Origin: Levilactobacillus yonginensis
GTDB taxonomy: Bacteria; Bacillota; Bacilli; Lactobacillales; Lactobacillaceae
DNA length: 46,276 nt
NCBI RefSeq assembly: GCF_003946265.1
Contig: NZ_RHNO01000019.1
Location: 1-46,276, forward strand
Reading direction: 5' to 3'
Shown here: in pieces, positions 12,622-41,493 of the stretch
Position numbering within the stretch: position 1 is the stretch's first letter
How the letters are laid out: every line of letters starts with the position of its first letter
Notes under the pieces: model-generated
What the model saw: only the letters and a program-made list of their open reading frames with translations
Database searches by the model: none
What the model was told of the DNA's origin: nothing
Program-made: the position numbers and the translations under genes

Positions 12622-13183
12622 GCTTGTCCTCCTTTGCGCGAACCTGCTTTAAAGCAGTCGCGAAGTCCTCGGGTTGAATACCAAACATTCGGAGTCGCTT
12701 CTCCAATTGCTTCCCGTTAACGTAACCGATTTGTAGAATCTCTCCTAATTGTTCCCGGCGTTCTTTGGCGCCGGCACCACCAATCAGCCCCGCCGCCATC
12801 AAATCCTCGTGGGTAATCAACGTAGGCGCCGCCGTAGTCTCAGTGTAAACGTGGTCTAGAGCCGCGCGGATAGCTGCCGGACTAGCGTGCTCAACCCCTA
12901 AAGACCCACCGGCCTTATCTGGGCGACCCTCAGCCTTGGGCAGAAAAGCGTGCTTGGCGTTCGGAACTGCTTCCGCCACAATTTTTCGAATCTTTTCTCC
13001 TGAAAAATCAGGGTCGGTGAAAATGATGACGCCCCGCTGATCCGCTAACTTCGCAATTAGGGCCAGTGTATCGTCATCAATGGCGGAACCCCGTGTCTCG
13101 ATGGTATCGGCGTTAACCGCCCGATTAATTTGCTTGGTATCATCCTTGCCCTCAACCACGAGGACTTCTTTAATCTTTTTCAT
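12611..13183 (-). CDS. rnmV: Ribonuclease M5
   Basis: RNase M5 makes the final cuts in 5S rRNA maturation. The 190-aa protein starts MKKIKEVLVVEGKDD, a Toprim domain with the catalytic Glu, and continues with IIFTDPDFSGEKIRK carrying the DxD metal motif. The frame stays open to 13309, but that extension is basic shadow sequence inside tatD; the ATG at 13183 has GAGGAG 12-13 bases upstream and gives the family N-terminus. It overlaps tatD by 14 bases. Confidence 0.95.
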   Translation of the reverse strand: MKKIKEVLVVEGKDDTKQINRAVNADTIETRGSAIDDDTLALIAKLADQRGVIIFTDPDFSGEKIRKIVAEAVPNAKHAFLPKAEGRPDKAGGSLGVEHASPAAIRAALDHVYTETTAAPTLITHEDLMAAGLIGGAGAKERREQLGEILQIGYVNGKQLEKRLRMFGIQPEDFATALKQVRAKEDKHEE

Positions 13184-13949
13184 TCGTTTTGTAAAACTCC
13201 TCTGCGTTTTTAAACGTGGCTGCGGCAATTTCTTCTGGTGTCGTCTCACGTTCCTTGGCAATCGCCTCAACCGTGTAACGGGTAAATCCTGGTTCATTCT
13301 GTTCGCCACGGTGTGGTTCTGGCGTCAGGTACGGTGCATCAGTCTCCACCATCATGACATCAAGTGGCGTAGCTCGTACGGAATCGTGAACCTCATGGGC
13401 GTTCTTAAAGCTGGCCACGCCAGAATAAGAAATATGCATCCCCAAGTCGAGGAACTTCTTCAACCATTCTGGATCACCGTTAAAACTGTGCATGACCCCA
13501 CTAATTTTACTGATATCGGCATCTTTAATAATTTGATAGGTATCTTCGAACGCATCTCGGTTGTGCACCGCAATGGGCTTGCCGACCTCTTTGGCAATCG
13601 CGATTTGCCGGGCAAACACCTTGCGTTGTACGTCCTGTGGTGAACTATCCCAGTGGTAGTCCAGGCCAATTTCACCTAAGGCCACCACCCGTTCATCAGC
13701 CAACTGTTCTTCCAACAGTTTTTCAGCCGCTGCATCGTAATTTTTCGAGTCTTCAGGGTGCCAACCGACTGCCGCGTACATTTGTGGATACTGGTGAGCC
13801 AGCTTGATAGCATCGGCGTTCAACTGTGTGTTGGAGCCAATGTTCGTCAGCTTAACGACTCCCAGGTCCGCCGCTTGTTTAAGGTAGCGGGGTACGTCGT
13901 TGATGAATTCTTCACTGTTTAGGTGCGTATGTGAATCAAATATTTTCAT
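13170..13949 (-). CDS. tatD: TatD family metal-dependent deoxyribonuclease
   Basis: This 259-aa TIM-barrel hydrolase shows the metal ligands of the TatD family: DSHTHLN at the N-terminus, AVGWHPED, HNRDAF, VMHSFNGD and ETDAPYLTPEPHRG. TatD enzymes act as 3'-5' exonucleases on DNA and RNA, with roles proposed in repair and DNA degradation. AAGGAGGGACCAAG precedes the ATG. It heads the tatD-rnmV-rsmA operon. The upstream region contains a large structured element instead of the usual short leader. Confidence 0.95.
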   Translation of the reverse strand: MKIFDSHTHLNSEEFINDVPRYLKQAADLGVVKLTNIGSNTQLNADAIKLAHQYPQMYAAVGWHPEDSKNYDAAAEKLLEEQLADERVVALGEIGLDYHWDSSPQDVQRKVFARQIAIAKEVGKPIAVHNRDAFEDTYQIIKDADISKISGVMHSFNGDPEWLKKFLDLGMHISYSGVASFKNAHEVHDSVRATPLDVMMVETDAPYLTPEPHRGEQNEPGFTRYTVEAIAKERETTPEEIAAATFKNAEEFYKTNEKD

Positions 13950-14003
13950 CTTGGTCCCTCCTTGAATTATTTGTTTGTTTTAAATTAGTTTTTTTGCTGT
14001 GCC

Positions 14004-14174
14004 GCCTACGGCAGTCAGGGGCCGCGCCGTGGGGCAACCCTGGTAGCCTCAAATCACGAGTCTCCAGGGCGCCTTGAAACCTCACAAAATCCGTGAGTTT
14101 CCAAGGTCGTCCCATGCTCTAAGCGGTAAACCGCTAAGACCATCGACACCGCGCGGGCCCTGACTGCCTTCGGC
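14004..14174 (-). ncRNA. Structured element A in the tatD leader (candidate RNA)
   Basis: Arms of 27 bases at 14004-14030 and 14148-14174 pair with four mismatches. They enclose three hairpins: 14038-14069 (CCCTGG/CCAGGG with an inner CTC/GAG), 14072-14106 (14-base arms) and about 14118-14138 (AGCGG/CCGCT and flanks). This is a closed four-way junction. On the minus strand most mismatches become G-A or G-U, on the plus strand they become C-U or A-C, so the minus strand is the more likely RNA. It ends about 30 bases before the tatD ribosome site. I do not recognise it as RNase P, tmRNA, SRP RNA, 6S or a known riboswitch. Confidence 0.6.
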
Positions 14175-14387
14175 TCTAGTCTAGTGAACATTAACAGGTA
14201 GTTGCTCAACCAGAACCACCATGCACCTAAAAAATCGCCACAATACATGCTCAATTCTAACGTTCATCAGCCCTGTACGAGAATAACCTGGTTCAACCAC
14301 GTTGTCCACCACTGCAGCCGACGCTCTCTATTGATTATAACAACCACTATAAACAAATAATACCATCCACGCTATTTGTTTTGGAAA
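14175..14387. other. Linker between structured elements with a possible tatD promoter
   Basis: On the minus strand a TATAAT box lies at 14334-14339 (in GTTGTTATAAT), with only a poor -35 (TATTAT) 17 bases upstream. If used, it would give tatD a leader of nearly 400 bases containing element A. The segment also holds a small hairpin around GGTaGTTG/CAACcagaACC (14197-14217). The reading frame 14054-14254 is shadow, with no ribosome site. Confidence 0.4.
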
Positions 14388-14594
14388 ATTGGCGACAATC
14401 TTAGCCGGCGGACGCCAGGGACAGGGCCGCAGTGACAGCGGTATTGCTTGGCGTTTTTGGCCAAGCTACAGCGCGGGGCGAGCTGGGAGGCCGGCCGTTT
14501 TTGGGCTGGGCTTCCAGTCGAGGAACAAGACCGCTCTTCGGCTTGTTCCGGTCCCCACAGCGGTCCCCGTCCCTGGCGGCCGCAAGCAGCCAAT
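14388..14594 (+). ncRNA. Structured element B (candidate RNA)
   Basis: Outer helices pair 14388-14393 with 14589-14594 (ATTGGC/GCCAAT) and 14408-14430 with 14560-14583 (core GCCAGGGAC/GTCCCTGGC and CCGC/GCGG). Inside are three hairpins: 14446-14466 (GCTTGGC/GCCAAGC), 14482-14518 (GCTGG and CCGGCC helices) and 14522-14549 (GGAACAAG-a-CCG / CGG-CTTGTTCC). Several non-Watson-Crick positions are G-U or A-G only when read on the plus strand. It is followed on the plus strand by a hairpin and TTTTT near 14665-14673. The architecture resembles element A but the sequence does not. Confidence 0.55.
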
Positions 14595-14621
14595 CAACAA
14601 AGAACTTCTAAAAACAAAGAA

Positions 14622-14673
14622 AAGCGCGGGCAAGCGTCTCCATAATGGCCCGCCGCCCACGCTTCAATTTTTA
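14622..14673. terminator. Bidirectional terminator after metG and element B
   Basis: Two overlapping stems share this site. For minus-strand metG, GCGGGC (14652-14657 on the minus strand side) pairs with GCCCGC (about 14625-14630) and is followed by a TTTTCTTTGTTTTT run. For the plus strand, AAGCG (14631-14635) pairs with CGCTT (14660-14664) before CAATTTTTAATT. The two stems exclude each other. Confidence 0.6.
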
Positions 14674-14691
14674 ATTATCGTCTAAGTCAGT

Positions 14692-16850
<2,159 letters not shown>

Positions 16851-38555: not shown

Positions 38556-41396
38556 CTAGGCTTGCTTACGGCGGAAAACTCGACTAAGACCTAACGTCAT
38601 GATTCCCAGTAAAGCACCCAACCAGCCGAGCTTACTGCCAGCTTCATTCGTCTGAGGTAACTGACCGTCAGCTTGTGTTGTATTGCCTAATTGATTATTG
38701 TCAGTCCCCGCTGTCAATGAGAGCGGCATCGTTGTGATGCCAGCAATCTCATCGGCTGCACCACCAACATCATCAAAGGACCCCTCGAGAATCTGATCAT
38801 TATTGCTTTCACTCCCAGTTGAACCAGTTTGAGAATTAGAACCGTCAGGCGTTTGGTCGCCAGAACTAGCAGTTTCTCCCTCGCTACCAGCACCGTTACT
38901 GCCGGTACTTCCTGGGCTAGTAACCCCGTTATCGCCAGCTTGCCCTTCATCAGTTTCATGACTGCCAGAACTGGTTTCGTTACCCGTATTAGGTCCACTA
39001 CCTGGGCCAACGTTATTGCCAGCATCTGAACCATTACCCGTATCATTTTCGGAATCAGAATCCTGGTCAGAACCTGAATTGCTATCGGAATCATGGCCAG
39101 ATTCGGAATCACTTTCAGAATCTGAATTACTGTCAGACTCAGAGTCGCTGTTTGAGTCTGAATCACTATCCGAGTCCGAATCGCTATCCGAGTCTGAGTC
39201 ACTGTCCGAGTCTGAATCGCTGTCGGAATCTGAATCACTATCCGAGTCTGAGTCACTATCCGAATCCGAATCGCTATCTGAATCTGAGTCGCTGTCCGAG
39301 TCTGAATCGCTGTCCGAGTCTGAATCACTATCCGAATCTGAGTCACTATCCGAATCTGAATCGCTATCTGAGTCTGAGTCGCTATCTGAGTCCGAATCAC
39401 TGTCCGAGTCCGAATCACTGTGGGAGTCCGAATCACTATCCGAGTCTGAATCACTATCCGAGTCTGAATCACTATCGGAATCTGAGTCGCTGTCCGAATC
39501 TGAATCGCTATCTGAATCTGAGTCACTATCGGAGTCTGAATCACTATCCGAGTCCGAATCGCTATCCGAGTCTGAGTCACTGTCCGAGTCCGAGTCGCTG
39601 TCCGAGTCCGAATCGCTATCCGAGTCCGAATCGCTATCCGAGTCTGAGTCACTGTCCGAGTCCGAGTCGCTGTCCGAGTCCGAATCGCTATCCGAGTCCG
39701 AATCGCTATCCGAGTCCGAATCACTATCCGAGTCTGAGTCACTATCGGAATCTGAATCGCTATCTGAATCTGAGTCACTATCAGAATCTGAGTCACTATC
39801 CGAGTCTGAGTCACTATCGGAATCTGAATCGCTATCTGAATCTGAGTCACTATCAGAATCTGAGTCACTATCCGAGTCTGAGTCACTATCGGAATCTGAA
39901 TCGCTGTCCGAATCCGAATCGCTATCTGAATCGGAGTCACTGTCCGAGTCCGAATCGCTATCTGAGTCTGAATCGCTGTCCGAGTCCGAATCGCTATCTG
40001 AGTCCGAATCGCTATCCGAGTCTGAATCACTATCCGAGTCTGAGTCGTTATCGGAATCTGAGTCACTATCCGAGTCTGAATCACTATCTGAGTCCGAATC
40101 ACTGTCGGAATCCGAATCGCTATCCGAATCTGAGTCACTGTCCGAGTCCGAATCACTGTCGGAATCCGAATCACTATCAGAATCTGAGTCGCTATCGGAA
40201 TCTGAGTCACTATCGGAATCTGAATCGCTATCCGAATCTGAATCGCTATCCGAGTCTGAGTCGCTGTCCGAATCTGAATCGCTATCAGAGTCTGAGTCAC
40301 TGTCGGAGTCTGAGTCGCTGTCCGAATCTGAGTCGCTGTCGGAATCTGAGTCGCTATCAGAGTCTGAATCTAACCCATTGCCAGGCGTCGCATCGCTCTC
40401 TGAGTCCGAATTACTGTCTGAATCCGAGTCACTCCCTGGTTGCGAACTACCTTCTGAATCACTGTCTTGGCCTGAATTGCCTCCAGCCTCCGAGTCATTT
40501 CCATCTACACCTGCGTCTGAATCAGACTCATTTCCCTGATTGGTGTTTTCATCCCCAGTATTGCCTTCAGAATTGTTGTCAGTATTTGACCCATTCCCAG
40601 TACCCGCATCATTGCCTGAATCAGCATTGTCTCCTGGTTCAGATGAGCCATCACCGTCTGTGTCCGAGGTGTCACCTGCATTTGCACTACCGTTCGTATC
40701 ATCAGTATCTGTACCTGCATCGACGTCTGTACCAGTACCACCATCAGACGTATTTTCATTACCATCTGCCGTTTCATCCCCGGTATTCTGGTCACTGGTG
40801 TCGCCGTCTGTTCCTTGCGTTGAATTGTCAGAATTATCTGCAGTATTCCCAGATTCTGACCCAGGGTCCGTCACACCAGTCGTCGTGGCATCACCGTTGC
40901 CGCTATCACTTGGTACAGTTGCCTCGGTGCCATTCGAAATTTCATTACTAGTATTATTTTCGTTCCCGCTATTACCAGCATTAGAATCACTTGATTCATT
41001 ACCAGTAGCATTCGATTCTTCCCCCTGATTTACACTCACATCAGGCGCTTCAGTCTGGCCAGTATCCGTGGCACCAGACGTCCCCTCAGTTGGATCAGTC
41101 GTTACGGTACTTCCTGTAGTGTTCCCAGCTGCCGTTTCGTTGCCATCATTAGGTGATGGCGTCGCTGGCGCTGGTGTTGCCGCCGGTGTCTGAACTGCCT
41201 CAGCAGAATTTTCCGTTTGACTAAGGCCAGCTTGACTAGCCCCCTCAGCAGGGGTGGCATTCGACTGAAGTGCCTGTTGGGAAATTGTCACCGTCGCTGC
41301 ACGGGCCTTACGCTGGTCATCAGTAGCCATCATTCCCGTACCAACCAAAGCGGCAGCTGCTGTGAGCCATAAACTCGTTCTTAAATTTTGTGACAT
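38556..41396 (-). CDS. Ser-Asp repeat wall-anchored surface protein
   Basis: The 946-aa protein has a signal peptide (cleavage near RKARAAT), about 300 residues of low-complexity Asn/Gly/Ser/Thr/Asp/Glu sequence, about 405 residues of almost pure Ser-Asp repeats, another short low-complexity stretch, and a C-terminal LPQTNE sorting signal (near residue 913) with membrane helix and RRKQA tail. LPQTxE is the form used in Lactobacillus plantarum-type sortase substrates. No folded binding domain is visible. It resembles the stalk of Sdr proteins of staphylococci. AAGGAGAAAATAC precedes the ATG at 41396. The repeat is prone to length change. Confidence 0.9.
39153..40369 (-). repeat. 18-base tandem repeat encoding Ser-Asp
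   Basis: The tract is built on units encoding DSDSDS with codon order GAY-AGY-GAY-TCN-GAY-TCN, giving an 18-base period. Third bases vary, so units are not identical. The regular codon pattern leaves no stop in several other frames, including long plus-strand frames reading SESESL, which are shadows. Single substitutions create one His (about 39420) and one Asn (about 40047) in the tract. Confidence 0.9.
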
Positions 41397-41493
41397 GTAT
41401 TTTCTCCTTCTCAATTGACCTTAGTCTGTTTCTCAGTAAACAACATGTTATCAGGTTCACAACGAGAAGAAAACAAGAACCACTACCCCTAAT

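Follow-up and report, generated by a model that had tools for sequence, protein, structure and literature searches.

The window analysed here is a 46,276-nucleotide stretch of DNA from Levilactobacillus yonginensis that carries, both on the minus strand, the genes tatD (13170..13949; PF01026, E 1.9e-82) and metG (14692..16731; PF09334 and others). Between them, a structured arm matched by our covariance model R1 occupies the tatD-leader position on the minus strand (14000..14177), followed by an inter-arm spacer (14178..14400, assigned to neither strand) and by a second, inverted arm on the plus strand (14401..14591), whose sense strand runs towards metG. The spacer contains a promoter-like site on the minus strand (TGGACA-17-TATTCT, 14308-14280), which is a consensus match only (2 were found, compared with 0.6 in shuffles). 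About 27 nt beyond the second arm, a terminator-like hairpin with a T-rich tail lies 3′ of metG (14619..14665, minus strand); it was read from the sequence and is absent from the list of our terminator and promoter scan, the sole terminator-like match of which falls inside the second arm. Elsewhere in the window, the minus strand carries a surface-protein gene (38556-41414) with LPQTN near the C-terminus and a very long serine-aspartate repeat, built from an 18-base unit in 70 copies (39106-40370), and the long antisense open reading frames found there probably reflect this repeat.

The block next to tatD (14004-14174) was originally predicted to be a four-way-junction element of the tatD leader, apparently an uncharacterised structured RNA, in which a closing stem encloses three hairpins. 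The two strands of that stem are inverted stretches of 28 nt that are 86% complementary (14004-14031 and 14147-14174), and the isolated block folds at -101.6 kcal/mol on the minus strand (z -7.7) and at -92.8 kcal/mol on the plus strand (z -8.4), with none of 200 shuffles equalling either value. Read on the minus strand, the inverted-repeat scan and the family consensus place the 5′ strand of the closing stem at 14147..14174, where it bears the GAA of a G.A/N-N′/A.G loop, and the 3′ strand, with the GUA of the loop, at 14004..14031. The stem encloses, on the same strand, hairpin 1 (14114..14143; 13 of 13 pairs covary), with a U.U mismatch conserved in 62 of 67 family copies; hairpin 2 (14072..14106; 15 of 15 pairs covary), with an A.G mismatch in 56 of 67 copies and C-G in 9; and hairpin 3 (14038..14069; 5 of 6 modelled pairs covary), which is missing in some arms from other genera. 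Thus, the stem and its three hairpins stand, but the family consensus has an additional GGGA/UCCC helix, with which the “four-way junction” may instead be modelled as two stacked three-way junctions; three of the four pairs of this helix are near-invariant, and covariation backs the fourth pair only. The block was also described as clearly richer in G and C than its neighbours, which holds on one side (0.62 in 14000-14099 versus 0.30 in 13900-13999) and less so on the other, where the contrast is smaller (0.44-0.51 in windows starting at 14150-14200), and its closing stem stops about 42 nt ahead of the tatD ribosome site GGAGGG, rather than the 30 or so bases first estimated.

Two familiar identities for the block are ruled out, in agreement with the original prediction. 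Given that no T-run lies behind it on either strand, the stem followed by a U-run that marks an intrinsic terminator is missing. An Rfam riboswitch, T-box, or other leader family is rejected because no covariance-model match falls within the arms: over 13900-14700, there was no match at the gathering threshold, and at E<=10 the only one was to L20_leader (E 6), outside the arms. The second arm, which had been missed, appears as an inverted repeat at 14408-14583, 225 nt from the first, and its fold is likewise more stable than expected (z -6.6 to -6.9).

Both arms belong to a dispersed repeat family. A BLAST search with the block gave 28 matches in its own genome (2.69 Mb in 63 contigs), and the second arm gave 42, self included in each case; among 58 genomes, 23 (own included) matched the block, all of them Levilactobacillus. 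From the stretches around the own-genome matches (192 kb, 104 clusters), we collected 75 near-full-length copies, 67 of which were aligned (alignment A1) and used to build R1, with 8 being excluded as short, over-long, or near-duplicate. R1 scores 14000-14177 on the minus strand at 142.2 bits (E 2.1e-41) and the second arm at 169.3 bits (E 1.5e-49), both arms being themselves among the 67 copies, and otherwise finds only weak matches in the window, on the opposite strands of the arms. In the whole genome, a first look gave 933 candidates, and all 150 of those that were scored lie below E 1e-34; the genome thus has at least 150 arms, which at about 190 nt each make up at least 1% or so of the genome; across the family, arm length ranges from 150 to 195 nt. 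Run at 59 of 80 tatD loci, R1 matched 14, and its matches include Lactiplantibacillus, Companilactobacillus, Schleiferilactobacillus, Lacticaseibacillus, and Loigolactobacillus; according to the printed alignments, the core of the fold is kept in most of the matches from other genera and is weakest in Loigolactobacillus (39.5 bits). A scan of 295 genomes of the order, with strict filters and 8 candidates scored per genome, matched 12 genomes in 5 of 72 genera, all within the family to which the window belongs. Our search of CC-licensed papers found no description of this repeat family.

The pairing of the arms is strongly conserved. In A1, 96.0% of pair cells are standard pairs, versus 78.8% in shuffled alignments and 33-48% when partners are slid; 49 of the 57 pairs change on both sides, and there are 643 double-change cells compared with 175 in shuffles, so that covariation and compensatory change both exceed the shuffled level, as in structured RNAs. 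The symmetric GAA/GUA internal loop proposed for the block recurs as well, columns 7-9 facing columns 208-210 with G.A in 54 and A.G in 56 of the 67 copies, and the noncanonical pairs are found again across genera in the printed alignments. Quasi-palindromes are known to be corrected by template switching between stem arms, and one could therefore suppose that these are functionless palindromes kept tidy by mutation, with false covariation as the result. Such upkeep, however, would erase the U.U, A.G, and G.A/A.G mismatches that are found in 54-62 of the 67 copies and that recur across genera, and it explains neither the preference for G.U over A.C nor arms that evolve more slowly than their spacers (see below). 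The kept mismatches and the G.U bias rule out the simple form of this explanation, and we regard it as highly improbable overall.

The same alignments indicate the strand on which the arms fold. G.U cells outnumber A.C cells by 209 to 33 in A1 (115 to 31 without three pairs that are G.U-rich or misaligned) and by 181 to 45 in the model-fitted alignment A2. This excess points to one folding strand, which for the window block is the tatD strand, as had been proposed. The bias leaves RNA and single-stranded DNA undistinguished, RNA being the simpler carrier for so complex a fold.

Neighbouring arms are arranged in a regular manner. In the own-genome stretches, 36 of 41 adjacent pairs are (-,+), 3 are (-,-), 2 are (+,+), and none is (+,-), where the 36 include arm fragments and a distance limit of 800 bp was used; the spacer measures 180-400 bp in 30 of the 36. 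The window block and its partner at 14401-14591 follow this rule, and (-,+) pairs also occur in Lactiplantibacillus and Companilactobacillus. Among spacers compared with one another, three pairs match (E 1e-3), and in one or more of these the match comes from arm sequence left in the spacer. Simple ORF calling in regions chosen for holding arms placed 31 of 36 arms between co-directional (20), convergent (8), or divergent (3) genes. Within 80 nt of the outer flanks in the own genome, a terminator points towards the arm in 15 of 75 cases and away from it in none, and in another genome of the family, G198, 11 of 26 units have a terminator pointing at the outer end (a count made without an outward control); there is thus a tendency to lie beside terminators. 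Promoters are not enriched in the spacers (20 of 68 strands versus 19.2 in shuffles), so the expression of the outward strand is putative. A search for promoters at a constant spacing ahead of the arms likewise gave none. In two own-genome units (C12:44692-45354 and C45:42472-43096), the left arm and part of the spacer are common to both, the right arms differ, and an apparent remnant of a further arm is also common; these represent a duplicated or recombined unit.

At the tatD locus itself, the presence of arms varies among relatives. Of the 35 genomes matched at tatD, R1 was run on 30, all Levilactobacillus loci, and detected one or more arms upstream of tatD in 17 (one of which, L247, is counted on a weak 21-bit match) and none in 13; where two arms are present, 9 of 12 loci are (-,+), 3 are (-,-), and 0 are (+,-). 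In G027, the tatD DNA of which is 94% identical, both arms are found (114 and 150 bits), and identity to the window is 94.9% in the left arm, 90.6% in the right arm, and 84.8% in the spacer. In G028 (tatD DNA 93% identical over a full-length match), only apparent scars of both arms are left, and the ribosome site is unchanged; because so close a relative retains nothing more, the arm is dispensable at tatD. The promoter-like site of the spacer is recognisable in both relatives, including the armless G028, which suggests that the left arm is probably transcribed within the tatD leader. A cis-regulatory leader or riboswitch specific to tatD would agree with the position of the sense strand of the arm, which has a promoter-like site on one side and the tatD ribosome site on the other, but it is contradicted by the dispersal of at least 150 copies in one genome, by the 13 of 30 congeners without a detected arm (the scarred G028 being one of them), and by the different-looking arms that occupy the same site in other species, and we give it almost no credence. 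The leader interpretation of the original prediction accordingly falls, since the block is half of an inverted pair in a dispersed repeat and is missing from a close relative, whereas the structure itself stands.

Some other features of this region deserve mention. In the metG-tatD regions L045, L047, and L050, from other species, the tatD side carries another arm type, the closing stem of which is very different in sequence (GCCAAATATGGG in L045). In two Levilactobacillus species (L049 and L050), motifs resembling DnaA boxes (TTATCCAC and variants, identified by eye) lie upstream of tatD; a search of the spacer of the window for TTATNCACA with at most one mismatch gave no match.

An indication of mobility comes from G198, which belongs to another genus of the same family. 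A BLAST search with one unit found dozens of places in this genome that are alike over both arms and the spacer, the full-length units being 80-94% identical and about 550-750 bp in size. In all 26 units that were read closely, both outer ends are common and sharp and the flanks differ, and no consistent target-site duplication was found around them. Given these 26 similar two-armed units with sharp common ends and no target duplication, the arm pair can spread as one unit. The units are short, their copies are many and dispersed, and their ends are inverted, as in MITEs, but the target duplication of MITEs is missing. Among the matches listed for seven genus mates of G198, none has unit length, the longest within the unit being 97 nt (G329), and one of these mates, G136, has an arm according to R1. 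No transposase was recognised among the ORFs listed around four unpaired G198 arms. No insertion site was found cleanly empty, and the cases of presence versus absence that we inspected are internal deletions that leave the ends or unclear gaps. The nature of the block is close to that of a transposable palindrome, but its pairing is strongly conserved, and the structure stands on that ground.

In G250, six copies (loci L191-L196) lack the third hairpin and read GGA/GGA in the terminal loop, as judged by eye. They are near-alike single arms of 152 nt with no partner detected and with some flank conserved on each side, and in the genus of G250 arms may also spread singly. In the own genome, one two-armed unit (L166:15131-15541) is inverted in place relative to its counterparts in the relatives (L168:14590-15003 and L170:4719-5140), being 85-86% identical to them when inverted and 62-63% when read directly, with flanks that are colinear with G028 at 93-95%. 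We considered an invertible switch, for which this single inverted unit (own genome versus G027 and G028) is insufficient, and TnpB/omega-RNA-like ends.

A strand-specific fold without target duplication is also what one would expect if the arms were folded single-stranded DNA ends of the REP/REPIN or IS200/IS605 kind, whose outward strand is read by a Y1-type enzyme and for which RNA would be irrelevant. The genome does contain Y1_Tnp genes (5 matches, some of them fragments, the fifth adjoining the third), and the 5′ end of its arms is frequently (G/T)TAG. However, the four Y1_Tnp loci have no arm at E<=0.1, so that no gene flanked by copies, as in RAYT systems, was found; a GTAG-like tag is not evident by eye in the arms of G198 or G250; and the arms, at 150-195 nt, are several times as long as a REP hairpin of 20-40 bp with a 5′ GTAG. 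Moreover, the two ends of a unit fold on opposite strands, unlike the ends of IS200/IS605 elements. Taken together, these observations make folded DNA ends rather doubtful.

The arms also appear to be maintained where they are. We compared the own genome with G028, the two being about 91% alike. The regions compared hold 34 own-genome arms: 4 of these are absent from G028 or deleted there, 2 lie at region ends, and 1 falls below the alignment threshold; the remaining 27, obtained from 29 ortholog assignments after two direct matches within the inverted unit were dropped, give the rates, which are biased towards conserved arms by the exclusion of those that were lost. Losses also occur in the other direction, at least one G028 arm being missing in the own genome. 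The 27 orthologous arms differ at 379 of 4,783 sites (7.9%), versus 23.7% of fourfold sites in 53 ORFs. For 7 full pairs, hand-picked for having both arms in both genomes, the 14 arms differ by 6.5% and their spacers by 20.2%. In an alignment of the 27 arms that was fitted to the model and therefore leans towards pairing, 38 of 41 double changes keep the pair, compared with 4.3 expected if the sides were independent, 37 single changes keep it, and pairing is lost in 38 of the 1,386 pair cells compared; differences from Watson-Crick to G.U number 39, versus 20 to A.C. Thus, with arms at 6.5-7.9%, spacers at 20%, and fourfold sites at 24%, selection seems to act on the arms in place, and evolution this slow makes the retained arms more than dead copies. 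Of the 24 of 27 arms that could be placed, the 13 facing a gene 3′ end diverge by 5.8%, compared with 11.1% for the 11 in leader position, yet at such 3′ ends the strand that folds is antisense to the mRNA next to it.

Evolution of this kind raises the question of whether the arms now belong to the host, as a structured RNA or protein-binding site derived from an old element that was domesticated at gene boundaries, where it might handle outgoing transcripts, its mobility being a thing of the past. Compensatory changes in retained arms, together with a rate of change that is about one quarter to one third that of fourfold sites, would fit such a role, and so would noncanonical pairs that recur across genera. 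The distribution outside chromosomes is in line with it too: the window arms had no match among plasmids, one window arm had none among phages, and units from two other genera (G198 and G299) gave only partial plasmid matches among the matches listed, in 1 and 11 records, respectively, covering 13-15% of the query; three of these records were inspected and have no annotated feature beneath the match. A search of E. coli genomes with one window arm also gave no match. On the other hand, individual arms have been lost, the two at tatD among them (G028), the contexts of the arms span every gene orientation, and G198 has dozens of similar units that are not seen as units in seven genus mates among the matches listed. 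We therefore keep host ownership as a possibility, and a clearly less probable one than mobility. It is also conceivable, if rather unlikely, that the arms form a genome-wide class of structured RNAs marking intergenic borders, in which a host protein would bind the outgoing arm and limit antisense or read-through transcription, the host keeping hundreds of copies of what began as a mobile element.

Our preferred interpretation, to which we assign a probability of roughly 60%, sees in the block one of the two arms of a MITE-like element that lies between genes in Lactobacillaceae and in which each arm is structured on its outgoing strand. Each arm folds on the strand that runs outward from the spacer, with a long closing stem, the G.A/N-N′/A.G loop, two or three hairpins, and fixed mismatches, and a putative enzyme acting in trans would recognise the folded arms. 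Insertion of the units would produce no target duplication and would often occur immediately 3′ of an intrinsic terminator. The resident arms would then fold in the RNA that exits the intergenic region, in leader or read-through transcripts, and selection would keep their structure in this outgoing RNA. At tatD, the arm would lie within an mRNA leader transcribed from the spacer promoter, and a close relative would do without it. Selection in place is not expected for a purely parasitic repeat, and it counts against the MITE-like reading. Further points against the preferred interpretation are that no transposase-bearing copy, target duplication, or cleanly empty site turned up in the places inspected, that some arms are lost and some pair cells broken, that the spacers show no promoter enrichment, and that divergence is lowest at gene 3′ ends.

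Bacterial interspersed repeats are usually regarded as decaying parasites. Here, a complex, strand-specific fold is common to several genera of Lactobacillaceae, and arms that have been retained change at a lower rate than the spacers between them and than orthologous synonymous sites. Thus, the old question of whether interspersed repeats turn useful to their hosts becomes directly testable in harmless food bacteria. The covariance model R1 could be used for annotation, and other apparent leader RNAs in Lactobacillaceae may prove to be repeat arms.

Several known systems share some of these features. Group IIC introns are structured RNAs that insert just behind intrinsic terminators without target duplication, and the family resembles them in these three respects but has two inverted arms and no match to an Rfam intron family. 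REPINs are inverted pairs, and this arrangement, known from the REP/REPIN palindromes associated with RAYTs, recalls our paired arms. The bcr1 repeat of the Bacillus cereus group, compared by its features, is a MITE-like intergenic repeat of a Gram-positive lineage with a predicted fold, but it is a single repeat rather than an inverted pair with a spacer. It is named in PMC2267715, which screened 40 genomes, including that of Lactobacillus johnsonii, systematically for repeated stem-loops; the Lac-1 family of that species is located there in coding regions, in contrast to the intergenic family described here. According to PMC3733652, GTAG REPs are palindromes of 20-40 bp with a GTAG tag that often lie downstream of genes, for which mobilisation in trans has been hypothesised, and GTAG families occur in Proteobacteria, Cyanobacteria, Chloroflexi, and PVC; our arms are far longer, at 150-195 nt. 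Lactobacilli are not mentioned in the available portion of a paper on REP prediction (PMC12306157). For BOX, RUP, and SPRITE of Streptococcus pneumoniae, PMC3049150 describes small interspersed repeats with extensive secondary structure that are judged parasitic, transpose slowly, and are at times co-transcribed with genes. Compared by features and not by sequences, the nearest kinds are BOX/RUP/SPRITE, the GTAG REPs, and the stem-loop families of PMC2267715. With the pneumococcal elements, the family shares the condition of lineage-bound interspersed repeats with extensive secondary structure, and it differs from them in its two inverted multi-branched arms per unit, its strand-specific noncanonical pairs, and its slow evolution in place.
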